Shown piece after piece: positions 6,199 to 38,090 of a stretch of 38,090 bases of DNA. A program made the translations under genes and the position numbers. The notes below the pieces were generated by a model. The model did no database searches, had not been told where the DNA came from, and was given only the letters and a program-made list of their open reading frames with translations. The stretch's first letter is position 1; every line of letters begins with the position of its first letter. Source of the stretch: Nocardiopsis sp. (lineage in GTDB: Bacteria > Actinomycetota > Actinomycetes > Streptosporangiales > Streptosporangiaceae); contig JAJKHX010000315.1 in NCBI GenBank assembly GCA_021154785.1, positions 1 to 38,090 of the forward strand, given 5' to 3'.

Positions 6199-9100
6199 AT
6201 GCCACGCCGACGCCGTTTCATTCCGCTCGCCGCCAGCACCGCCTTGCTGGCCGGCCTGGCGGTCACCGTCCCGGCTGCGGTCGCCGTTCCGGCCGCCAGC
6301 GCCGCCGTGACGGCCGCCACGGCACCCGGTGCCCCCGGCACGGCCTCCTACTTCGACCTGGCCAGGAAGGACTGCCTGGGCACGTCGGCCGGAACCGGGT
6401 CCAAAATCTGGTACACCGTGGCCGGCGGGGTGCTCTCCGACGTCTACGAGCCCACCATCGACAACACCGACGTGAGCACGCTGCAGTACATCGTGACCGA
6501 CGGCTCCACGTTCACCGACCTGCAGACACGGGACATGACCTACACGGTCGCCGCCGATCCCGCCGGCATGGCCTGCACGGTGACCTCGGCCGACGCCAAG
6601 CACGGTTACCGGCTGGTCACGACCTACATCACCGATCCGGCCCGGGACACCGTGCTGATGCACACTCAGCTGCAGGGGCTCCCCGGGTCCGGGGTCCGCC
6701 TGGCCGGGCTGCACCTGTACGCCCGGCTCGACGCCCACGTCAACGGCAACGGCGGCGGCGGGATCCAGAACGCCGGCGCCAACTCCGGTGTGGTGGACGC
6801 CTCGGGCGTCCCGGTGGTCTTCAGCACCAACACCGTCACCAACGCGGCCAACCGCGACTACGCGGTGCCGACCTACATGGCCCTGGCCGGCACGTCCGGG
6901 GGCGCGGCCTCCGTCGGCTACGCGGGCTCGGCCAGCGACGGACTCACCCAGCTGGACTCCGCGCGCACCCTGACCTCGTACACCTCCGCCCCGGACGGCC
7001 ACATCACGGCGACCGAGAACGTCACCCCGGGGCCCAGCCACGACGTCACCCTCGCGCTGGGCTTCGGCCGGAGCCAGGCGCAGTCGGTGTCCGTCGCGAA
7101 GAGCTCGCTGAGCCGTCCGTTCGCCCTGGCCGCGGCCAGCTACCTGGCCGGCTGGGTGGGCTACGATGCCCGGCTGCGGCCGCCGCCCGCCCGCGAGGCC
7201 AAGCTGGCCACTCATTACTACCTGTCGGCCAACGTCCTGAAGGCCAGCGAGGACAAGACCTTCCCCGGCGCGATCGTGGCCTCGCTGGCCAGCCCGTGGG
7301 GCCAGTCGGTGCCGGCCGGGGTGACGGCCAACGGCGAGCCGTCCTACTTCGGCTCGTACCGCGAGGTGTTCTCCCGCGACCTGTACGAGGCCTTCACCGG
7401 GCTCATGGCCGACGGGGACGTGGCCACCGCCAGGGCGGCGACACTGTTCCTCTTCGACCACCAGCAACTCCCGGACGGCGCGATGCCGCGCAACTCGCTG
7501 CTGAACGGCAAGGCCGCCCCGGACACCGGCGGCACCCAGCTCGACGAGGCGGCCTACCCGATCCTGATGGCGCACCTGGCCGGGCTCGGCGGTGACGCCT
7601 CCCTGTACACCGACCACATCCGGCCGGCCGCTGACTTCCTCGTCGCCAACGGCCCGTCCGACGGCGTGGAGCGGTGGGAAGAGCAGACCGGCTACTCCCC
7701 GTCCACGATCGCGGCCGAGATCGCCGGCCTGACCGCGGCGTCCGCCATCGCCGCCAGCCACGGCGACGCCGCCCGCGCCCGCCTGTACCAGGCCACCGCC
7801 GACGACTTCCAGCGCACCATCAAGACCTGGACCGTGACCACCACCGGCCCGGACGGACCGCGCTACTTCATCCGGCTGTCCAAGACCGGTGACCCGAACG
7901 CGGCCATCAGCTACAGCCTCGGCAACGGCGGCCCGACCCTGGACCAGCGCGCCGTCATCGACGGCGGCTTCCAGGAGCTGGTCCGGCTGGGCGAGCTCCC
8001 GGTCACCGACCCCGACATCCAGGCCTCGCTGAAGGTGCTCGACAAGCAGATCTCGGTGTCCACGCCCAGCGGCACCGGCTACTACCGGTACGGCAACAGC
8101 GCCGCCGACGGCAGCGCGGACGGCTACGGCGACTGCTACCAGCCCAGCCAGTCCTCGTGCACGGTGCCCGGGGCCCCGTGGCCGCCCACCGGCACCGGCA
8201 CCGGGCACCTGTGGCCGAACCTGTCCGGCGAGCGCGCCGAGTCCGACCTCGCCGCCGGGTCCGCCGGCGGCGCGCAGGCCCTGCTCCAGGCGATCGTCAG
8301 CTTCTCCTCCGGCGTCGGGCTGGTGCCCGAGCAGGCCTGGGAGGACCCGGACCTGGCCGCCTCGCCGTTCGGCAGCGACCCGGCGACGGCCTCGATCGGC
8401 TTCACCGACGGCAAGGCGGCCGGCTCGGCGTCCCCGCTGACCTGGGCCCAGGCTCAGGAAGTGCGGCTGATCGACTCCCTGGGCACCGGGCACAACGTGG
8501 ACACCCCGGCCCTGACCACCGCGCGCTACGTCACCAACGGGCCGCCCGGCAAGCTGCCGGTGACCATCACCGCTCCGGCCGCGGGCAGCACGCTGGCCAG
8601 CGCCACCACCACCGTGACCGGGACGACCGCGCCCGGCGCGGCGGTGACGGTACAGTCCGACGACACCACCACCAACGCCCCGGCCGCGGTGGCCAGCACC
8701 ACCGCGGCGTCCGACGGGACGTTCTCGGTCACGGTGCCGGTCAGCTTCGGCAGCAACGCGATTACCGTGGCGGCCAGCGCCGCCGGCGGCCGCAGCACCG
8801 GCTACGGCCAGGTCACCGTCACCAACGAGGGCGGCGGCAGCACCGTGCTCGACGTGACCGACCCGGCCGGCGACGACAACGGCCCGGGCACCTACCAGTA
8901 CCCGACCGACGCCAGCTTCCACGCCGGGGCGTTCGACCTGACCAGGTTCCAGGTCCTGTCCGACGGCACCTTCACCTACCTGCGCACGACCCTGGCCAAC
9001 CTGGACCCCACCTTCGGGGCGACCGACGGGGCGCAGCTGCTCGACCTCTACGTCCACGTGCCGGGCGCCTCGGCGACCTCCACCCAGGCCGCGTTCGCCT

Positions 9101-9537
9101 CCCGTAACTACACCATCGGGTCGGCCGGCGCCTGGAGCCAGCGGATCGAGGTCCAGGGGTTCGCGGACCCGGTCTGGGTGAACGCGGCCGGCGGCAGCGC
9201 CGGCACCGCGTCGGTGCTCGCCGAGCAGGCCGACCGCACGATCACCATCGCGCTGCCCGAGGCGCAGTTCGGCACCCCGGCCTCGGGCTGGGGCTTCAGC
9301 GTGGTGCTCACCGGCCAGGACGGGTTCGGCACCGACCAGGCGCGCAACTTCACCGCGACCCCCGGCGGCTTCACGTTCGGCGTGTGCGCACCCGGCGGCA
9401 CCGCGCCGATCTGCGCGGTCGACCCCAACACGGTGCCCAGGGCGATGGACGTGCTCACCCCGGCCGGGGTCTCCCAGGCCACCGAGCTCGACCCGGCCAA
9501 GGGCCCGGTGGTCATCCAGCCGGTTGTGGTGCCTTAG
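6199..9537 (+). CDS. Secreted GH15 glucoamylase/glucodextranase
   Basis: The 1112-residue exported hydrolase should release glucose from starch-type or dextran-type alpha-glucans. It has a basic, hydrophobic signal peptide (MPRRRRFIPLAASTALLAGL, cut near AASA), a beta-rich N-terminal domain to about 300 of the glucodextranase type, the (alpha/alpha)6 GH15 catalytic domain, an Ig-like domain (about 785-875, starting PVTITAPAAGSTL) and a C-terminal glucodextranase-type domain. Conserved GH15 segments are EVFSRDLYEAFTGLMADGD, WEEQTGYSPST (Glu494/495, general acid) and LVPEQAWED (Glu711, general base). GAGGGAGGG before the ATG at 6199 fixes the start; the upstream ATG at 6136 has no ribosome site and would bury the signal peptide. 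No CBM20 is visible. Its stop codon overlaps the stop of the convergent neighbour. Confidence 0.92.
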   Translation: MPRRRRFIPLAASTALLAGLAVTVPAAVAVPAASAAVTAATAPGAPGTASYFDLARKDCLGTSAGTGSKIWYTVAGGVLSDVYEPTIDNTDVSTLQYIVTDGSTFTDLQTRDMTYTVAADPAGMACTVTSADAKHGYRLVTTYITDPARDTVLMHTQLQGLPGSGVRLAGLHLYARLDAHVNGNGGGGIQNAGANSGVVDASGVPVVFSTNTVTNAANRDYAVPTYMALAGTSGGAASVGYAGSASDGLTQLDSARTLTSYTSAPDGHITATENVTPGPSHDVTLALGFGRSQAQSVSVAKSSLSRPFALAAASYLAGWVGYDARLRPPPAREAKLATHYYLSANVLKASEDKTFPGAIVASLASPWGQSVPAGVTANGEPSYFGSYREVFSRDLYEAFTGLMADGDVATARAATLFLFDHQQLPDGAMPRNSLLNGKAAPDTGGTQLDEAAYPILMAHLAGLGGDASLYTDHIRPAADFLVANGPSDGVERWEEQTGYSPSTIAAEIAGLTAASAIAASHGDAARARLYQATADDFQRTIKTWTVTTTGPDGPRYFIRLSKTGDPNAAISYSLGNGGPTLDQRAVIDGGFQELVRLGELPVTDPDIQASLKVLDKQISVSTPSGTGYYRYGNSAADGSADGYGDCYQPSQSSCTVPGAPWPPTGTGTGHLWPNLSGERAESDLAAGSAGGAQALLQAIVSFSSGVGLVPEQAWEDPDLAASPFGSDPATASIGFTDGKAAGSASPLTWAQAQEVRLIDSLGTGHNVDTPALTTARYVTNGPPGKLPVTITAPAAGSTLASATTTVTGTTAPGAAVTVQSDDTTTNAPAAVASTTAASDGTFSVTVPVSFGSNAITVAASAAGGRSTGYGQVTVTNEGGGSTVLDVTDPAGDDNGPGTYQYPTDASFHAGAFDLTRFQVLSDGTFTYLRTTLANLDPTFGATDGAQLLDLYVHVPGASATSTQAAFASRNYTIGSAGAWSQRIEVQGFADPVWVNAAGGSAGTASVLAEQADRTITIALPEAQFGTPASGWGFSVVLTGQDGFGTDQARNFTATPGGFTFGVCAPGGTAPICAVDPNTVPRAMDVLTPAGVSQATELDPAKGPVVIQPVVVP

Positions 9538-29480: not shown

Positions 29481-31325
29481 TTACTCCTCGAAGCGCCCTC
29501 CGAGGTACCGGGCCAGGAAGCGCTCGGCGGCCGCGTAGAACTTCAGCCGGTTGGCCGGCTTGGCGAAGCCATGGCCCTCGTCGGGGAACAGCATGTACTC
29601 GTAATCGATCCCGGCGTCCTTGAGCGCCGCGACGATCTGCTCCGACTCGGCCTGCTTGACCCGCGGGTCGTTGGCGCCCTGCGCGATCAGCAGCGGGATG
29701 CGGATATCACGAGCCCGCGACAGCGGGGACCGGGACCACAGGAACTCCTTGTCGGTCTCCGGGTTGCCGACCCGCCGGTACAGCTGCGCCGCCATCGGCT
29801 TCCAGTACGGCGGGATCGTGTCGAGCAGCGTCTGCAGGTTCGACGGGCCGACGATGTCCACCGCGCAGCGGAACACATCCGGGGTGAAGGCCGCGCCTAC
29901 CAGGGCCGCGTAGCCGCCATAGGAGCCGCCGTAGATGGCGACCTTGTCCTGGTCGGCCCAGCCCTGGTCCACGGTGTACTGGACCGCGTCCAGCAGGTCG
30001 TCGTGCATCTTGGCGCCCCACTCGCGGTCGCCGGCCGACACGAACGACTTGCCGTAACCGGTCGAGCCGCGGTAGTTCACCTGCACGCACAGGTACCCGC
30101 GGTTGGCCAGCCACTGCGCCTCGGGGTCCCAGCCCCAGACGTCACGGGCCTGCGGCCCGCCGTGCACGTTGAGCACGGTGGGCAGCCCGGACCGCCCGCC
30201 GTCGGGCGGGAAGGTGACGTACCCGTGCACGGTCAGCCCGTCGCGCGCCTTGAACGAGAACGGCTCCATGTGGGCCAGCCCGTAGCCGGACAGTTCCGGG
30301 CGGCTGGAGAACAGGTGGCGGCCGGTGCGGGTGGCCCGGTCGAAGGCGTAGTACTGGATCGGGCCGGCGTCGTCCATGAACGCGATCAGCCAGGTGGAGT
30401 CGGCCTCGTCGCGGCCGATCGGCTGCGGGTCGCCGTGGTGGAGCGCCTCGATGGCCTCCCAGTCCGCCCGTACCGCCGGGTCGAGCACGTGGTACTCGGT
30501 GCGGTCCTTGAGCACCTCGACGATCTGCGGTTCCCGGGTGTCCGGATGCAGCGTCGCGCCCGCGACGTCCGCCTCGGGGTCCTCCAGGAGCACCTGGGCG
30601 TCGCCGGAGGCGAGGTCGATCTTGACCAGCCGGCCGGTGTCGGTGCCGGCCGAGCTGATCGCCAGCAGGGAGTTCCCGTCGCCCGTGAACGCCAGCACGT
30701 CGCTGGCCGGGGCGTCGTCGGCCGTGATGGTCAGCAGCGTCCGCCATTCCGCGTCGGCGCTGTCGCGGACCAGCAGGTCGAACCCGCCGTCGGGCAGCGG
30801 CGCGATCGCGCCGCGGACCACCAGGTCCTCATCCGCCAGCCAGCCGGCGTATCCGGGGTTCTCGATCAGCTTGTCCAGCTCGCCGGTGGTCAGGTCCAGC
30901 TTGAAGACGTCGTGCAGCTGCGGGTTCTCCCGGTTCATGGCCACCAGCACCTCATTGCGGTGGCTCTTGCGGGTGGCGATGATGCGCGCCTGGATGTCCT
31001 CGAATGGCGTCAGGTCGCGCCGGGCCATCGTGCCCATGTCGACGTCGTACAGCCGCCAGTTCTCATCGCCGCCGGTGTCCTGCACGTAGAGCAGGTGCTG
31101 GCCGTCCCGGGCCCAGGTGAAGGACCGGATGCCCCGGTCGGTGTCGTCGGTGACGACCTTCGCGGCGTCCCAGTCGACGCCGGCGGCCGTGACGGGTGCG
31201 ACCCAGACGTTCAGCACCCCGTCGCGCGGGGCGATCCAGGCTAGCTGGCTGCCGTCAGGAGAGATATGCGGGCTGACCCGTTCGGGGTTGCCGAAGAGCA
31301 CTTCACGGGGAATCAGTTCGACCAT
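29481..31325 (-). CDS. S9 family peptidase (prolyl oligopeptidase/acylaminoacyl peptidase type)
   Basis: The 614-residue cytosolic serine peptidase has an N-terminal beta-propeller (about 10-340; SPHISPDGSQLAWIAPRDGV, IRSFTWARDGQHLLYVQDT) and a C-terminal alpha/beta hydrolase. The triad is Ser468 (YGGSYGGYAALVGA), Asp in LLIAQGANDPRVKQAESEQI and His in LFPDEGHGFAKPANRLKFY. HGGPQARDVWGWDPEAQWLA supplies the oxyanion hole. There is no clear ribosome site before the ATG at 31325. The orphan copy of the aldehyde dehydrogenase 3' end stops only 35 bases upstream on the same strand, so this gene probably once followed that dehydrogenase in an operon. Confidence 0.93.
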   Translation of the reverse strand: MVELIPREVLFGNPERVSPHISPDGSQLAWIAPRDGVLNVWVAPVTAAGVDWDAAKVVTDDTDRGIRSFTWARDGQHLLYVQDTGGDENWRLYDVDMGTMARRDLTPFEDIQARIIATRKSHRNEVLVAMNRENPQLHDVFKLDLTTGELDKLIENPGYAGWLADEDLVVRGAIAPLPDGGFDLLVRDSADAEWRTLLTITADDAPASDVLAFTGDGNSLLAISSAGTDTGRLVKIDLASGDAQVLLEDPEADVAGATLHPDTREPQIVEVLKDRTEYHVLDPAVRADWEAIEALHHGDPQPIGRDEADSTWLIAFMDDAGPIQYYAFDRATRTGRHLFSSRPELSGYGLAHMEPFSFKARDGLTVHGYVTFPPDGGRSGLPTVLNVHGGPQARDVWGWDPEAQWLANRGYLCVQVNYRGSTGYGKSFVSAGDREWGAKMHDDLLDAVQYTVDQGWADQDKVAIYGGSYGGYAALVGAAFTPDVFRCAVDIVGPSNLQTLLDTIPPYWKPMAAQLYRRVGNPETDKEFLWSRSPLSRARDIRIPLLIAQGANDPRVKQAESEQIVAALKDAGIDYEYMLFPDEGHGFAKPANRLKFYAAAERFLARYLGGRFEE

Positions 31326-31361: not shown

Positions 31362-31456
31362 TACCCGGAGAACCAGTGCGTGGGACCGGGGCTGGTGTTG
31401 TGGTAAATGTGCTTCTTCTCCTGATATTCATCCAGGCCGGAGGGGCCGAGCTCGCG
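31362..31456 (-). repeat. Left direct repeat: orphan copy of the aldehyde dehydrogenase C-terminus
   Basis: On the minus strand it encodes REL followed by GPSGLDEYQEKKHIYHNTSP and GPTHWFSG, the same 31 residues as the intact gene, and stops with TAA (31361-31363) where the intact gene has TAG. The three base differences from the right copy are all synonymous. Homology ends at the CGCGAGCTC that encodes Arg-Glu-Leu. Confidence 0.85.
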
Positions 31457-31581
31457 CCGACCTGCGCCGACGCCTCTGGTGGCCGTCTAGCTGCGGGTTT
31501 TACCGTTGACTGCGTTGGCGGGCGTTGGCTGTTGGATGCTGTTTGACGGCCCGGCGACGGCCCGGCTCGGGGTCGGTCACG

Positions 31582-31853
31582 GTGACCGCCAGCCCATACG
31601 ACGAGCCCCTGTCCGCCCTGCGCGAGCGGGTCGAGAACCTAGCTACTTGGCTAGCCATCTGGGAGCACCGCGCCGAGCCCGACGCCGCGCCCGTCGCTGC
31701 GCCAGTGACGCCGTGGACGCGGCAGACGCCGCGCTGGGCGAGCTGTACCGCATCCGCGCTCAGCTCGTGAGCGAGATCCGCGATGCCGACGACGCCACGG
31801 CGGCCAGGGTTGACGCGCTGCTGAACCGCAGCCGGGAAGAGGGTGAGGCATGA
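31582..31853 (+). pseudogene. Small helical protein gene, frameshifted
   Basis: From the GTG at 31582 the frame reads VTASPYDEPLSALRERVENL and ATWLAIWEHRAEPDAA, then leaves the natural frame. A second frame continues with RRCASDAVDAADAALGELYR, IRAQLVSEIRDADDATAARV and DALLNRSREEGEA to the TGA at 31853. Joined near 31685-31700 by a one-base shift, the two halves make one plausible helical protein of about 90 residues. Its stop overlaps the next start (ATGA). I recall similar small proteins in actinomycete integrative elements but cannot verify this here. A sequencing error or programmed shift could also explain it. Confidence 0.55.
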
Positions 31854-32040
31854 CGGACAGCCAGGGCGAGCGCGGCCTGTGGGCCGCAGCAGGCGAGCCG
31901 GGGAACTCCGCGATGTGCGGTGCCCGGTACGAGGCCGGCCACCTGGTCCGCCGCGACCGGATGCGGGCGGCCGGGTCTGTATCGCCTGCGGCCGGGAGCC
32001 GGGCGAGGCGGGCATCCTGGACCAGCTCGACGGCCGGTGA
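31850..32040 (+). pseudogene. Small zinc-ribbon-like protein gene, frameshifted
   Basis: The ATG at 31850 overlaps the previous stop. The first frame reads MTDSQGERGLWAAAGEPGNS, then AMCGARYEAGHLVRRDRM; a second frame continues with GGRVCIACGREPGEAGILDQ and LDGR to the TGA at 32040. A one-base shift near 31960-31972 joins them into about 62 residues with two Cys-x-x-Cys pairs (CGAR is preceded by M, so the first pair is incomplete: only one Cys is seen in AMCG; the second is CIAC). The conserved look of both halves across a frame change marks it as broken or mis-read. Confidence 0.5.
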
Positions 32041-32270
32041 GGCAGTACCCCGCGTTTGCCGGCCGCGCCCGGTACCCTCTACGCCGGGGACACGCATTAT
32101 CACAACTGATTACTAGCCACGCGGCAGGCTATCCACCGTCACGCTATGCGGTAGCCCGCTTACGACGTTGCAGCCGCCTGGCACGGCGAGGTCTCATGTG
32201 CGGGTGCTGGCTGGCCCGGCTCCACGGCGCATAGGCTGGCTAATAGGTGACGACACGACCCGAGGTGACG
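32041..32270 (+). promoter_or_regulatory. Upstream region of the element's regulator gene
   Basis: These 230 bases contain no credible gene. TAGGCT at 32232-32237 would suit a -10 box for either a very short leader to the ATG at 32271 or a leaderless message from the GTG at 32247. No clear -35 box is seen. Confidence 0.3.
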
Positions 32271-33512
32271 ATGCTCGATGACCTCGCCGGGAAGCGAACC
32301 GGCGAGCGAATCCAGATCCTGCGCGAGCGCAGGGGGCTGTCCCGGCCGGTGCTGGCCGGGCTGGTCGGCATGTCCGCCTCGTGGCTGAAGGGGATCGAGC
32401 GCGGGACCAGGCTGCCGCCGCGCCTGCCGCTGCTGGTCAAGCTGGCCGAGGCGCTGGCCGTGGGCGACGTGGCCGTGCTGGCCGGGACCGACATGGACCT
32501 GGGCGGCGCGGCGTCGGTGCCGGTGTCCTCGTTCGCCCGCATCCCGCATGACGCGGTGCCCGCCATCCGCGAGGCCATCCGCGACCCGCTGCTGACCGTC
32601 CCGGCCACCTTGATCGACGTGGCCGCGCTCGCGGCCAGGGCGGCGGACGCCTGGCTGCTGTGGCACCAGTCCGCCGAGCACCGCACCGACGTAGGCCGCA
32701 TCCTGCCCCGGCTGGTCACCGATGCCCGCATCGCGGCGCGCACTGCCGAGGGCTCCGACCGCCGGGCCGCCAGCGCGGTGCTGGCCGACGTGTACGCCCT
32801 AGTCCAGCACGAGGTGGTCTGGGCGAGCGAGGCCGAGCTGACCTGGACGGCGGCCGACCGGGCGATGACCGCCGCGCAGGACGCCGACACGCCAGAGGCG
32901 CTGGCCGGGGCGGCGTGGACGCTGGGCATGGTGCAGCGGGGGGCCGGTGACACCGACGCCGCGCTGACCCTCGCGCAGGAGGCCGCCGGGCTGCTCCAAC
33001 CGCGCCTGGAGGACGCCGATGACGAGACACGCGGGCTGTACGGCGCGCTCCAGCTCCACGCCGCGACCACGGCGGCCAGGGCTGGCCGCGAGGGGGACGC
33101 CTGGCGTCACTGGGACGCGGCCAGCGTCACGGCCGAGCGGCTGCCCGACGGCTACTACCACCCGTGGACCATGTTCGGCGCGGCCAACGTGAAGCTGCAC
33201 GCGGTGTCGATCTCGGCGGACCTGTCCCGGTCGGCCGAGGCGCGCAACCGGGCCGAGGAGATCGACCCCGAGGAGATCCCCAGCCGGGAGCGACGCGCAC
33301 GGCTTGGGGTGGAGATCGCGCGGTCCTATCACCAGCGCCGCGACTACCCGGCCATGCTGCACTGGCTGGAGACGGCCTATGCGACCTCGGCCGATTCGGT
33401 GCGTTACTCCCCGACGGCGCGGCAGATGACCGCTGACGCGGTGGATCACGGCGGCCCGCTGATCAGCCGCAGGGCGCGCTCGCTGGCCGGGAGCATCGGC
33501 CTGCCCCTCTAG
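32271..33512 (+). CDS. XRE-type helix-turn-helix regulator with helical-repeat C-terminal domain
   Basis: The 413-residue protein starts MLDDLAGKRTGERIQILRER and has an XRE-type helix-turn-helix at about 10-65 (GLSRPVLAGLVGMSASWLKG, IERGTRLPPRLPLLVKLAEA). The rest is alpha-helical with TPR-like pairs (AASAVLADVYALVQHEVVWA, DTPEALAGAAWTLGMVQRGA, HAATTAARAGREGDAWRHWD, VEIARSYHQRRDYPAMLHWL), ending SRRARSLAGSIGLPL. This layout is common among actinomycete regulators that may sense peptides or small ligands. The ATG at 32271 has GAGGTGACG before it; a GTG at 32247 is an alternative. It is the only large intact gene in the element, and should be its master regulator. Ligand and targets are unknown. 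Confidence 0.85.
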   Translation: MLDDLAGKRTGERIQILRERRGLSRPVLAGLVGMSASWLKGIERGTRLPPRLPLLVKLAEALAVGDVAVLAGTDMDLGGAASVPVSSFARIPHDAVPAIREAIRDPLLTVPATLIDVAALAARAADAWLLWHQSAEHRTDVGRILPRLVTDARIAARTAEGSDRRAASAVLADVYALVQHEVVWASEAELTWTAADRAMTAAQDADTPEALAGAAWTLGMVQRGAGDTDAALTLAQEAAGLLQPRLEDADDETRGLYGALQLHAATTAARAGREGDAWRHWDAASVTAERLPDGYYHPWTMFGAANVKLHAVSISADLSRSAEARNRAEEIDPEEIPSRERRARLGVEIARSYHQRRDYPAMLHWLETAYATSADSVRYSPTARQMTADAVDHGGPLISRRARSLAGSIGLPL

Positions 33513-33626
33513 CCAGGGGGCGCACCCTGCACCCCGCCGGGCTGGTCCGCACTGCGGGCCGGTTGGTCGCCCGGTGTCTTCATATCGTCGCCGCTGACGA
33601 CAAGATCACGGCAGGAGACGATCGCC

Positions 33627-33851
33627 ATGGGCAGGGCCGCCGCAGCCAGCGGGCAGAGCGATCCGTTCGCGGTAGACGAGGAAGCCGCGCTGGCCGAGCT
33701 GGAGCGCACGTGGGCAGACGGCGGCTACCACGCCTTCAGCGCCGGGGGCGGCCTGTGGTACGCGGTCAGTAGCGCGGGCGAGGTGCTGACCGGGGACACG
33801 CCCGACGCGCTGGACCGGGCTATCCGGGCGCACTGGGCGGCGTGGCAGTGA
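33627..33851 (+). CDS. Small acidic hypothetical protein
   Basis: The 74-residue protein begins at an ATG with AGGAG nine bases upstream and reads DPFAVDEEAALAELERTWAD, then GGYHAFSAGGGLWYAVSSAG and DTPDALDRAIRAHWAAW. The pattern, a short helix, a small sheet with W-Y and a closing helix, recalls small proteins found next to XRE regulators in actinomycete mobile elements (from memory). It has no membrane segment. Its stop overlaps the start of the next small frame (GTGA). Confidence 0.65.
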   Translation: MGRAAAASGQSDPFAVDEEAALAELERTWADGGYHAFSAGGGLWYAVSSAGEVLTGDTPDALDRAIRAHWAAWQ

Positions 33852-34022
33852 CGCCCGGCCGCGACCATGATGTCAGTGAGATGACCGCTTGAGCGCGCCC
33901 GGCGCGACCTGCGAGTGAGCCTGGCCCTGGCCATGCCCGGCTCCCCTATGCGGGAACCCATCCTCGCGCAGATGAGCGCGATCGATGCCGCCCTGGCCGC
34001 ACGCACCGACGGCAGCTCATGA
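33848..34022 (+). pseudogene. Small helical protein gene, frameshifted
   Basis: The GTG at 33848 overlaps the previous stop. The first frame reads VTPGRDHDVSEMTA and stops at 33892; a second frame, open from 33885, reads LERARRDLRVSLALAMPGSP and MREPILAQMSAIDAALAART to the TGA at 34022. A one-base shift near 33885-33890 would give a single protein of about 58 residues with an amphipathic helix and a MREPILAQMSAID motif. The second half could alternatively be translated alone from the GTG at 33915 (35 residues). Confidence 0.5.
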
Positions 34023-34114
34023 TCTACCTGTGTAGCTGCGGCTTCGCCACGGATGACCGAGATTGGTTCGACGGGCACCTGTTCACGCATCCAGGCCACC
34101 AGACGCGACCGTAG
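34019..34114 (+). CDS. Tiny Cys/His protein, possible zinc-binding peptide
   Basis: This 31-residue frame overlaps the previous stop by four bases (ATGA). It reads MIYLCSCGFATDDRDWFDGH, then LFTHPGHQTRP. Cys5, Cys7, His20, His24 and His27 give a C-x-C then H-x3-H-x2-H arrangement that could hold one zinc ion. The tight overlap and residue pattern argue that it is real despite its size. Function unknown; it is the last recognisable gene of the element. Confidence 0.5.
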   Translation: MIYLCSCGFATDDRDWFDGHLFTHPGHQTRP

Positions 34115-34212
34115 CCCCGCAGCGCGACTCCCACGCCACCATGAGCGCCGACGACCACGAGCAGCGATGAGCGCGCAGGCCCGTCAGATAGCACATATCC
34201 GCAGGTCAGCGG

Positions 34213-35679
34213 CTACCCGGAGAACCAGTGCGTGGGACCGGGGCTGGTGTTATGGTAAATGTGCTTCTTCTCCTGATATTCGTCGAGGCCGGAGGGGCCG
34301 AGCTCGCGGCCGATGCCCGACTTGCCGAACCCGCCCCATTCCGCTTGCGGAAGGTAAGGGTGGTAGTCGTTGATCCACACGGTGCCGTGCCGGAGCGCGC
34401 CGGCCACCCGTTCGGCCTGTCCTGCGTCGGCGGTCCATACCGCGCCGGCCAGGCCGTAAGCGGTGTCGTTGCCGAGCCGGATCGCCTCCTCCTCGGTGCT
34501 GAACCGCTCGACGGTCACGACCGGGCCGAACACCTCGTCCTGCACCACCGCCATCTCGCGGTGGCAGCCGGCGAACACCGTGGGCCGCAGGAAGAACCCA
34601 GCCGCCAGGTTCGGCTCCGGGGGCCGCTGGCCGCCGGCCAGCAGGTCCGCCCCCTCGGACAGCCCGAGCTGGACGTAGCGCTCCACCTTCGCGCGGTGCG
34701 CGGCGGAGATCAGCGGGCCGCACTCGGTCTGCGGGTCCAGGCCGCTGCCCAGCCGGATCCGGTCGGCCCGGGCGGCCAGCTCGGCCACGAAGCTGTCGTG
34801 CAGCGAATCCTGCACGATCAGCCGCGCGCCGGCCGAGCACACCTGGCCTGAGTGCAGGAACGCCGCGGTCAGCGCGTTGTCCACCACGGTGTCGAAGTCG
34901 GTCCCGTCGAACACGATGTTGGGGTTCTTGCCGCCGAGCTCGAGCGCCACCCGCCGCACCCCGCGCGCCGCCGCGGCCATGATCTTCTCGCCGGTGCCCA
35001 GGCCGCCAGTGAAGGAGATCAGGTCCACTCCCGGGTGCGCGACCAGCGCCTGCCCGGCCGTGCCGCCCTGGCCGAGCAGCAGGTTGAGCACGCCGGGGGG
35101 CAGCTCCGCTTCCTCGAACAGCCCGACCAGGGCCACCGTGGACAGCGGGGTCAGCTCGCTGGGCTTGATCACGGTCGTGTTGCCCGCGGCCAGGGCGGGC
35201 GCGAGCTTCCAGGAGATCTGCAGCAGCGGGTAGTTCCACGGGGCGATCAGCGCGCAGACGCCGACCGGCTCATGGGTGATCCGGCTGGTCACGTTGGCGC
35301 GGCCCGGGTCGACCACCCGGCCCGCGTCGGCGCCCGCGACCCCGGCGTAGTACCGGAACACCGCGGTGGTGTCGTCCACGTCGGCCCGGGCCTCGTTCAC
35401 CGTCTTGCCGGTGTCCAGGCTCTCCGTGTGCGCCAGCTGCTCACGGTCCCGCTGCAGCAGGTCGGCGATCTTGGCGAGCAGCGCGGCCCGGTCGGTCACC
35501 GTCGACCGGCGCCACGGCCCGTCGAACGCCTCCCTGGCCGCCGCGACGGCGGCGTCGACGTCGGCGGTGCCCGCCTCGGCCAGCGTGTCCAGCGGGGTGG
35601 CGTCGAACGGGTTGATGGTCTGCGCCGTGCCGCCGTCCGCGGCCTCGGTCCACTTTCCCGCGATGTACAGGTATCTCAC
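34213..35679 (-). CDS. NAD(P)-dependent aldehyde dehydrogenase, betaine-aldehyde dehydrogenase-like
   Basis: The 488-residue cytosolic enzyme oxidises an aldehyde to its acid. It shows the cofactor segment PVGVCALIAPWNYPLLQISW, KPSELTPLSTVALVGLFEEA, SFTGGLGTGEKIM, the base in VALELGGKNPNIVFDG, nucleophile Cys281 (HSGQVCSAGARL) and AVVQDEVFGPVVTVERF. The C-terminus (GTVWINDYHPYLPQAEWGGF, GKSGIGRELGPSGLDEYQ) resembles actinomycete GbsA/BetB-type betaine-aldehyde dehydrogenases, so glycine betaine synthesis is a reasonable guess, but no choline-oxidising partner is near. The GTG start has GGAG six bases upstream. The final 31 codons are the right direct repeat of the inserted element. Confidence 0.9.
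   Translation of the reverse strand: MRYLYIAGKWTEAADGGTAQTINPFDATPLDTLAEAGTADVDAAVAAAREAFDGPWRRSTVTDRAALLAKIADLLQRDREQLAHTESLDTGKTVNEARADVDDTTAVFRYYAGVAGADAGRVVDPGRANVTSRITHEPVGVCALIAPWNYPLLQISWKLAPALAAGNTTVIKPSELTPLSTVALVGLFEEAELPPGVLNLLLGQGGTAGQALVAHPGVDLISFTGGLGTGEKIMAAAARGVRRVALELGGKNPNIVFDGTDFDTVVDNALTAAFLHSGQVCSAGARLIVQDSLHDSFVAELAARADRIRLGSGLDPQTECGPLISAAHRAKVERYVQLGLSEGADLLAGGQRPPEPNLAAGFFLRPTVFAGCHREMAVVQDEVFGPVVTVERFSTEEEAIRLGNDTAYGLAGAVWTADAGQAERVAGALRHGTVWINDYHPYLPQAEWGGFGKSGIGRELGPSGLDEYQEKKHIYHNTSPGPTHWFSG
34214..34308 (-). repeat. Right direct repeat: native 3' end of the aldehyde dehydrogenase gene
   Basis: These 95 bases match 31362-31456 at 92 positions. They form the last codons of the intact dehydrogenase and the T and A of its TAG stop. 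The differences (His CAT/CAC, Asp GAC/GAT, Leu CTC/CTG) leave the protein unchanged. Confidence 0.88.
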
Positions 35680-35777: not shown

Positions 35778-36039
35778 TAATATAGGGGAAGGCATCCGAG
35801 AGCCGAGCCGGTCGTCCGACGACTTTCCCTGTGCTGAGTCATCAGCCCACCCGTCGGCGGTTCAGGATTTCGGGTAACAGCCTGCCGTGGCCCGCAGCGT
35901 TGATCGTCGGAGATCCGCGAGGCGGCCCCGGCGTTCAGGGCATCAGGCTCTCTGCCCGGGACGGTTCCTCGTCCCAGCCGGGAGACTGTGCGGCATGCTG
36001 CCGTGGCCACCGTGCCCCGGCAACCTAGAGGAGAAGTCT
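35778..36039 (+). promoter_or_regulatory. Long, possibly structured leader of the helicase gene
   Basis: TAATAT (35778-35783) could be a -10 box, giving a leader of about 250 bases. The leader includes the dyad GTCGTC-C-GACGAC (35811-35823) and a GGGACG/CGTCCC hairpin near 35956-35975, and ends in GAGGAG before the TTG. No -35 box is convincing and no known riboswitch class is recognised. Frames inside it lack coding character. Confidence 0.35.
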
Positions 36040-38090
36040 TTGGCTCGACCAGGCCAGCGCCAGACGAGCGCTCGCCGTACCGCCCCGCGCAATCAGCGAC
36101 GCGTCCGCCACCAGGGCGACGTCGTGTCGGTGCTCGCGCGCAACGCCCGTGAGGTAGAGGCGGCCGCCCAGCGCGGCCGCGTGACGCCTGCCGTGCGCAC
36201 GAAGTTCCAGGCCATCGCCCTGCTGCTGCGGGACGAGCGGGCCCGGGTGCGGGCGGCGGACGTCAGCGACAGTCACCGGTCCGAGCAGCTCAGGCGCCTG
36301 GACGGCGTCGCGACCATCCTGGCGACGACCGCCGTCCGCGACGCTCAGCTGCTGGCGCTGCTCGCTGAGGACTCCGACGTCTCCGACGCGGCCCGGTCCC
36401 TCAAGCGGGAGATGCTGCGGGACCTCGGCATTGAGCCGGCGCCCGAAGAGATCGCGCCGGCCGAGCCTGCGACCGCTCCCGCCGAGACCGAGCGGCGGGT
36501 CGTGCCGCAGTCGGTGATCTCCCGGCAGCTGGCGAACCCCTTCCTCGCCCCCGACTTCTCGGCCGCCCCGGCGCCCGCCGCGCGTCCGCGCCGCCTGGGC
36601 AACTGGGAACTGCTCAACCCGCTGCTGAGTTCCTTCGAGCGCGCCGGCGGGGGAGCCTCCGCCTGCATGGCGCTCCCGGCCCCGACGGCCCGGTTCACCC
36701 CGCCCGGCCTGGAGCTGATGCCGCACCAAGGCGAGGTGGTCGCCGCGGCGGCGGCCGGTCACCGGACGTTCCTGCTCGCCGACGAGCCGGGCCTGGGCAA
36801 GACGGCCGAGGCGCTGCTCGCCGCGGAAGCGGCGAACGCCTACCCGCTGCTCGTCGTCGTGCCGAGCGTCGTCAAGACCAACTGGGCCCGGGAGGCGGCC
36901 CGCTGGACGCCCCACCGCCCGGCCACCGTGGTGCAGGGCGACGGCGAGGCGGTCGACGGCTTCGCCGATATCGTCATCCTCAACTACGAGGTGCTCGACC
37001 GCCACATGGGCTGGCTCGGCGACTTCGACTTCCGCGGCATGGTCGTGGACGAGGCCCACTTCATCAAGAACAAGTCCTCGCAGCGCTCGCAGCGTGTCCT
37101 GGCGCTGTCGGACCGCATCCGGTCCCGGGCGGCCCGGCCCCTGCTGATGGCGCTGACCGGCACCCCGCTGATCAACGACATCGACGACTTCCGGGCGATC
37201 TGGCAGTTCCTCGGCTGGATCGATGACAGCAAGCCCCTCGACGAGCTGACAGACGCGCTCGAGGACACCGGCCTGACCCCCGCCGACCGCGGCTTCTACA
37301 CCGCGGCCCGCCAGTGCGTGATCGACCTCGGCATCGTGCGCCGCCGCAAGGTCGACGTGGCCGCCGACATCCCCGCCCGCCGCATCGCCGACCTCCCCGT
37401 CGAACTGGACGGACGCGTCGGCCGGTCGATCCGGGCGGCCGAGAAGAACCTGGCCGGCCGGATGGTGGCCCAGTACGAGAACGCGCTCGCGAACCGGTCC
37501 TCCGACGCCGCCGTCGAGGGCATCGATCACGACCTCGTCCGCAAGGTGGCCCGGTCCGAGCTGAAGGACACGACCACCAAGACGTCCGGCGAGAACGTGT
37601 TCACCATGATGCGGCGCATCGGCCAGGCCAAGGCCGAGCTGGCCGCCGACTACGCGACGCAGCTGGCCCGCAGCGCCGGCAAGGTCGTCTTCTTCGCCAG
37701 GCACGTCGACGTGATGGACGCCGCGGAGGAGACCTTCGCCCGGCAGGGGGTGCGCTCGTCGTCCATCCGTGGCGACCAGACGCCGACGACGCGGCAGGCG
37801 AACATCGACGCGTTCGTCAACGACCCGGACGTCGCCGTCGCGGTGTGCTCGCTGACCGCGGCCGGCGTGGGCCTGAACCTGCAGGTCGCCTCGAACATCG
37901 TGCTGGCCGAGCTGTCCTGGACCGACGCGGGGCAGCCCCAGGCCATCGACCGCAGCGACCGCAGCGGGCAGACCGAGCCGGTCACCGCGTCGCGCATCAT
38001 CGCCGCGCAGACCATCGACGCCCGCATCGCGGGCCTGATCGACGGCAAGGCCGGGCTCGCCGCCCGGGCCCTGGACGGATCCGACGAGGA
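36040..38090 (+). CDS. SNF2-family DEAD/DEAH box helicase (runs off right edge)
   Basis: A TTG at 36040, six bases after GAGGAG, opens a frame that is still open at the window end (683 codons). An N-terminal region of about 225 residues starts LARPGQRQTSARRTAPRNQR (basic) and is helical. The ATPase core follows: motif I DEPGLGKT (248-255), LLVVVPSVVKTNWAREAARW, motif II DEAH (337-340), motif III MALTGTPLIND, and in the second lobe KVVFFARHVDVMDAAEETFA, CSLTAAGVGLNLQVASNIVL and motif VI QAIDRSDRSGQT. The VLAEL-x-W wording is close to SMARCAL1-type SNF2 enzymes. It should be a dsDNA translocase that remodels protein-DNA complexes or anneals strands. Few residues seem to be missing at the C-terminus. 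Confidence 0.88.
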   Translation, partial: MARPGQRQTSARRTAPRNQRRVRHQGDVVSVLARNAREVEAAAQRGRVTPAVRTKFQAIALLLRDERARVRAADVSDSHRSEQLRRLDGVATILATTAVRDAQLLALLAEDSDVSDAARSLKREMLRDLGIEPAPEEIAPAEPATAPAETERRVVPQSVISRQLANPFLAPDFSAAPAPAARPRRLGNWELLNPLLSSFERAGGGASACMALPAPTARFTPPGLELMPHQGEVVAAAAAGHRTFLLADEPGLGKTAEALLAAEAANAYPLLVVVPSVVKTNWAREAARWTPHRPATVVQGDGEAVDGFADIVILNYEVLDRHMGWLGDFDFRGMVVDEAHFIKNKSSQRSQRVLALSDRIRSRAARPLLMALTGTPLINDIDDFRAIWQFLGWIDDSKPLDELTDALEDTGLTPADRGFYTAARQCVIDLGIVRRRKVDVAADIPARRIADLPVELDGRVGRSIRAAEKNLAGRMVAQYENALANRSSDAAVEGIDHDLVRKVARSELKDTTTKTSGENVFTMMRRIGQAKAELAADYATQLARSAGKVVFFARHVDVMDAAEETFARQGVRSSSIRGDQTPTTRQANIDAFVNDPDVAVAVCSLTAAGVGLNLQVASNIVLAELSWTDAGQPQAIDRSDRSGQTEPVTASRIIAAQTIDARIAGLIDGKAGLAARALDGSDE

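Follow-up and report, generated by a model that had tools for sequence, protein, structure and literature searches.

Probable remnant of an integrative element that has lost its integrase, inserted at an aldehyde dehydrogenase 3' end in Nocardiopsis sp.

The 3' end of an aldehyde dehydrogenase (ALDH) gene in Nocardiopsis sp. has been used as an insertion site, a reading well supported by sequence comparison with three relatives in which the site is empty, and the 2.85 kb that now separates two copies of this gene end is probably a decayed integrative element (prophage or AICE-like) that has lost its integrase. With this case, the protein genes targeted by integration at their 3' ends come to include a catabolic dehydrogenase. 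The case also offers the ALDH 3' end as a testable attB for actinobacteria and gives an example of what remains after the decay of a gene-end element: losing the donated gene end would damage the host gene, so the scar persists. The window analysed is an entire contig (C315; 38,090 nucleotides) of a fragmented assembly (577 contigs, 74% complete), and its relevant features are as follows.

29481-31325, minus strand: S9 (prolyl oligopeptidase family) peptidase, the native neighbour of the ALDH 3' end (domain search; gene order in relatives).
31362-31456, minus strand: orphan copy of the ALDH 3' end, read as the outer att junction (repeat; distance to the peptidase start; empty sites in relatives).
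31401-31429 (partner 34253-34281), no strand assigned: identical stretch between mismatches, the likely crossover interval (alignment of the copies).
31576-31853, plus strand: P1, small gene with a frameshift near 31680-31698 and an ATGA overlap with P2 (two-frame match here, one frame in the homologs of genome G029).
31850-32040, plus strand: P2, putative small Cys-containing gene, apparently frameshifted near 31970 (three-frame reading).
32256-33512, plus strand: intact HTH_31 regulator (HTH_31 domain; match to PHROG 5823).
33627-33851, plus strand: P3, intact 74-codon ORF after the regulator.
33867-34022, plus strand: P4, putative small gene with an in-frame TGA at 33882 and an ATGA overlap with P5 (frame reading).
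34019-34114, plus strand: P5, 31-codon ORF (MIYLCSCGFATDD...).
34213-35679, minus strand: betaine aldehyde dehydrogenase (BADH)-like ALDH, the target gene, its frame restored (ORF, domain search).
34214-34308, minus strand: gene-completing copy of the ALDH 3' end, read as the inner att junction, its last part probably element-borne (repeat; same encoded peptide as the orphan).

The 95-nt pair 31362-31456 / 34214-34308 (92 of 95 positions identical, 97%; period 2852) is the single strong direct repeat in the 38-kb contig, scoring 86 against the 19 reached by shuffled sequence, and is the pair from which a first-pass annotation had started. The genome, as represented by its 74%-complete assembly, holds these two copies of the 95-bp sequence and no third. 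The right copy constitutes the last 95 bases of the ALDH ORF, through the TA of the stop codon, at which identity between the copies ends; the left copy is an orphan stopping 37 bp short of the start of the peptidase ORF, so one copy completes the dehydrogenase and the other lies beside the next gene, as had been described. A repeat of the gene's 3' end thus marks both borders of the element, where no tRNA or Rfam RNA was found. The copies differ at 31400, 31430 and 31433, each time synonymously, which is what would be expected of an attP copy that had evolved as a functional gene terminus; both copies encode the same 31-residue peptide, and the ALDH, restored by the element's copy, has an intact frame and an unchanged C-terminus. 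If the mismatches are differences between attP and attB, the crossover likely fell within the 29 bp between 31401 and 31429. The ALDH itself contains a full Aldedh domain, its nearest model being that of betaine-aldehyde dehydrogenases, although it scores under that model's curated cut-off. The same ALDH is carried by a Nocardiopsis suaedae record (L094). Near the end of the contig analysed here lies an ORF for an SNF2-type helicase (35887-38088) with generic matches to the defence helicases DpdE, DrmD and ZorD.

Insertion through the 3' end, as the first-pass annotation had proposed, predicts relatives with one repeat copy and the ALDH directly before the peptidase, and this is the arrangement in one genome of the same genus (G001) and two of other genera (G003 and G014), which lack the element. 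The gap between the two genes at these empty sites is about 300, 75 and 70 bp, respectively; in G014 the match to the ALDH is confined to the last 135 codons (L213, G014:C104, 9973-10377). Two full tandem dehydrogenases, the arrangement named beforehand as speaking against insertion, were not seen. Only one mismatch lies downstream of the likely crossover, and there all three relatives share their base with the orphan and not with the gene copy; the two on the upstream side do not indicate which copy is native. The orphan is therefore best read, from this alignment, as the native gene end, with the ALDH now terminating in the copy supplied by the element. The two copies are far closer to each other (97%) than to the ALDH ends of relatives (74-81%), which means that the element acquired its copy from this lineage or one closely related to it, a point that counts against the reading as a decayed integrative element.

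The genes between the repeats all lie on the plus strand, opposite to the ALDH, and comprise a regulator and tiny genes with no recombinase domain, in agreement with the first reading of the locus; interior GC (72.7%) equals that of the flanks. P1 matches proteins of G029 with z scores of 14.7 and 22.4, in one frame there and in two frames here, and one of these homologs lies near a DUF2637 gene and the C-terminus of a tyrosine integrase. P2, for which no solid homolog was found, and P4 appear to be broken as well, on weaker support than P1. Some of the frameshifts may reflect errors of sequencing, but the genes nearby are intact. P3 shows a weak likeness to the ORF that follows the regulator in G001 (score 45, shuffle maximum 39-40), and P5 has a 50% match on contig G003:C98, which also carries a large serine recombinase and a Replic_Relax gene. 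The ATGA overlaps of P1 with P2 and of P4 with P5 are of the kind seen in coupled genes.

The match of the regulator to PHROG 5823 (E 1.4e-83) spans the entire protein. Full-length relatives (37-40% identity) occur in the Streptomyces temperate phages Ignacio and Chymera, where, as here, small ORFs accompany the regulator and an integrase then follows: in Ignacio, four small ORFs precede a serine integrase about 1.2 kb from the regulator, and in Chymera a tyrosine integrase lies about 3.5 kb beyond it. In a Streptomyces plasmid, the order is regulator, two small ORFs, recombinase. Unlike these phages, the present element contains no structural, lysis or integrase genes. The closest homologs of the regulator, in G001 (88%) and G014 (84%), lie away from the ALDH; dN/dS against them (0.13 and 0.11, respectively) shows purifying selection on the regulator family, not on this copy specifically. 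Searches with defence models returned generic HTH matches to the regulator and nothing more.

No Phage_integrase match is present on this contig, as compared with ten elsewhere in the genome, and no HTH_17 excisionase was found on it; Resolvase (serine recombinase) has no match anywhere in the genome. Beyond the HTH, the interior ORFs have no curated Pfam match and include neither rep nor FtsK-like tra genes, and those tested by Pfam and PHROGs revealed no PICI-like integrase or packaging-hijack genes of their own. Larger, integrase-bearing elements beside the same 95-bp sequence, which the first-pass annotation had proposed to look for elsewhere, did not turn up in 343 family genomes, 80 named-genome loci or viral contigs. 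Among the 343 family genomes the orphan ALDH 3' end described here is the single one; no duplicated ALDH 3' end occurs within 10 kb downstream at the 80 named-genome loci or at eight viral loci, a degenerate core pattern matches no viral contig, and neither an intact version of the element nor an integrase specific for the ALDH site was found in the collections searched.

The lack of a recombinase together with the broken small genes favours a stub left by a larger element, and a P1 that is frameshifted here and has homologs near integrase genes fits the same origin. We infer the recombinase type, the larger ancestor and the order of events as follows. The circular form would have carried an attP reproducing the terminal ~95 bp of the ALDH gene. 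A site-specific recombinase, probably the tyrosine integrase of the then larger element, would have joined this attP to the 3' end of the chromosomal gene. The gene would thereby have received from the element a new end with synonymous changes, its native end being displaced by 2.85 kb to the position beside the peptidase. A later internal deletion would have removed most of the element, integrase included. What survived would be the two att junctions, the phage-type regulator in intact form, one small ORF and the damaged small genes, a stub that cannot move by itself.

Other routes could lead to a similar structure. A non-replicating circle carrying an ALDH 3' end could have entered by Campbell-type homologous recombination through the 95 bp with no need of an integrase, none of which is present, and the species-specific character of the element's gene end (97% to the native copy, 74-81% to relatives) would suit such an origin. 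However, identity stops at the stop codon, the relatives of the cargo genes lie near recombinases, and 95 bp is short for RecA-dependent recombination, making this route unlikely. Whether the locus holds a satellite that borrows an integrase or the stub of a larger element had been left undecided by the first-pass annotation, and the evidence sides with the latter. A small, still mobile satellite that relies on the integrase of a partner element sharing its att site would account for the compact unit, the near-identical att copies and the intact regulator without a recombinase, and the genome does encode other tyrosine integrases on other contigs; yet P1 is frameshifted, and no partner element sharing the att site, no attP and no second occupied site was found in the 343 family genomes, the 80 named-genome loci, the viral contigs or the genome's own 74%-complete assembly. 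With nothing positive in its favour, we regard a mobile satellite as quite unlikely. A tandem duplication of the ALDH followed by loss of most of one copy would also leave two 3' ends in the same orientation, but is hardly credible: in the relatives one ALDH occupies the locus, next to the peptidase, and the interior contains a phage-type regulator and no further ALDH sequence. An unrelated 2.8-kb stretch joined through the repeat during assembly has to be considered for a genome so fragmented (577 contigs, 74% complete); judged from the assembled sequence, such an artefact is very improbable, since the longest exact run common to the copies is 38 bp, which allows an assembler to distinguish them, the outer flanks both match the native gene order of the relatives, and the GC content of the interior is that of its surroundings.

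A last alternative concerns the regulator. Counting against the stub, none of its ten nearest homologs in the family has a Phage_integrase nearby among the matches listed (some contigs being short), so the regulator can stand alone, and long repeats around the homologs include none attributable to att sites. In G154, a regulator homolog and a small ORF form a lone islet beside glnA (L077, 9453-11097); congeners such as G108, in which about 0.2 kb separates the two flanks, lack the module at this position. Taken together with the homologs lacking a listed integrase, this comparison hints that lone regulator islets may recur. The ALDH locus could then be a minimal integrase-less islet, a regulator and small ORFs between att copies, still moved in trans and belonging to a family of such islets whose locus varies between genomes of this actinobacterial family, a reading that we consider decidedly unlikely. 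Two other homologs have repeats in their surroundings: a 46% homolog in G138 is enclosed by a 71-bp imperfect direct repeat (L082, 7820-7890 and 13020-13090; 5.2 kb period), and the 88% homolog of G001 lies between transposase-like ORFs (L073, G001:C317, 1-3900) on a contig whose end bears an inverted 111-bp copy of the regulator's 5' region, which may stem from assembly.

The decayed element at the ALDH 3' end resembles several known systems. The E. coli prophages e14 and phage 21, which occupy the icd 3' end, bring with their attP a copy of this coding end that restores the protein. As in these prophages, the gene end here appears restored by an attP copy, with the displaced native end at the far junction, but e14 and phage 21 possess their own tyrosine integrase and target icd, whereas here the integrase is missing and the target is an ALDH. 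An actinobacterial host and a P1 relative close to a DUF2637 gene and the C-terminal part of a tyrosine integrase are reminiscent of actinomycete integrative and conjugative elements (AICEs); by contrast, int, rep and tra are absent here, and most AICEs with a tyrosine recombinase use tRNA 3' ends as sites (PMC3218068). Att sites in protein genes that the element completes are well known (PMC12884075), and a description of an ALDH 3' end as attB was not found in the open-access literature searched; the kind of event is thus known, while the target gene is apparently new.

The earlier remark that no described element uses this gene accordingly stands for that literature, with one qualification. 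The viral contigs L166 and L170 (IMG/VR; 1-2743) contain, at the contig end, a PatD-like ALDH (40-41% identical) whose stop codon lies 32 bp from an integrase on the opposite strand, and matches at identical positions occur in L167-L169 and L172; the L166 integrase has Arm-DNA-bind_2 and Phage_integrase domains. This arrangement, in which an integrase abuts an ALDH 3' end, suggests that the 3' end of another ALDH is used as an att site by prophages, and proviruses of this type may be a precedent for the present target, though they involve a different ALDH subfamily and host and a full phage with an Arm-DNA-bind_2 integrase. Neither a duplicated gene end nor a far-end att was found in the records of L166-type proviruses, and the E. 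coli collection contained no such prophage. An unannotated 'Bacteriophage sp.' scaffold from human faeces (L085, MT835479.1) also includes a stretch (9001-9175) 82% identical to the ALDH 3' region, which is probably host DNA.
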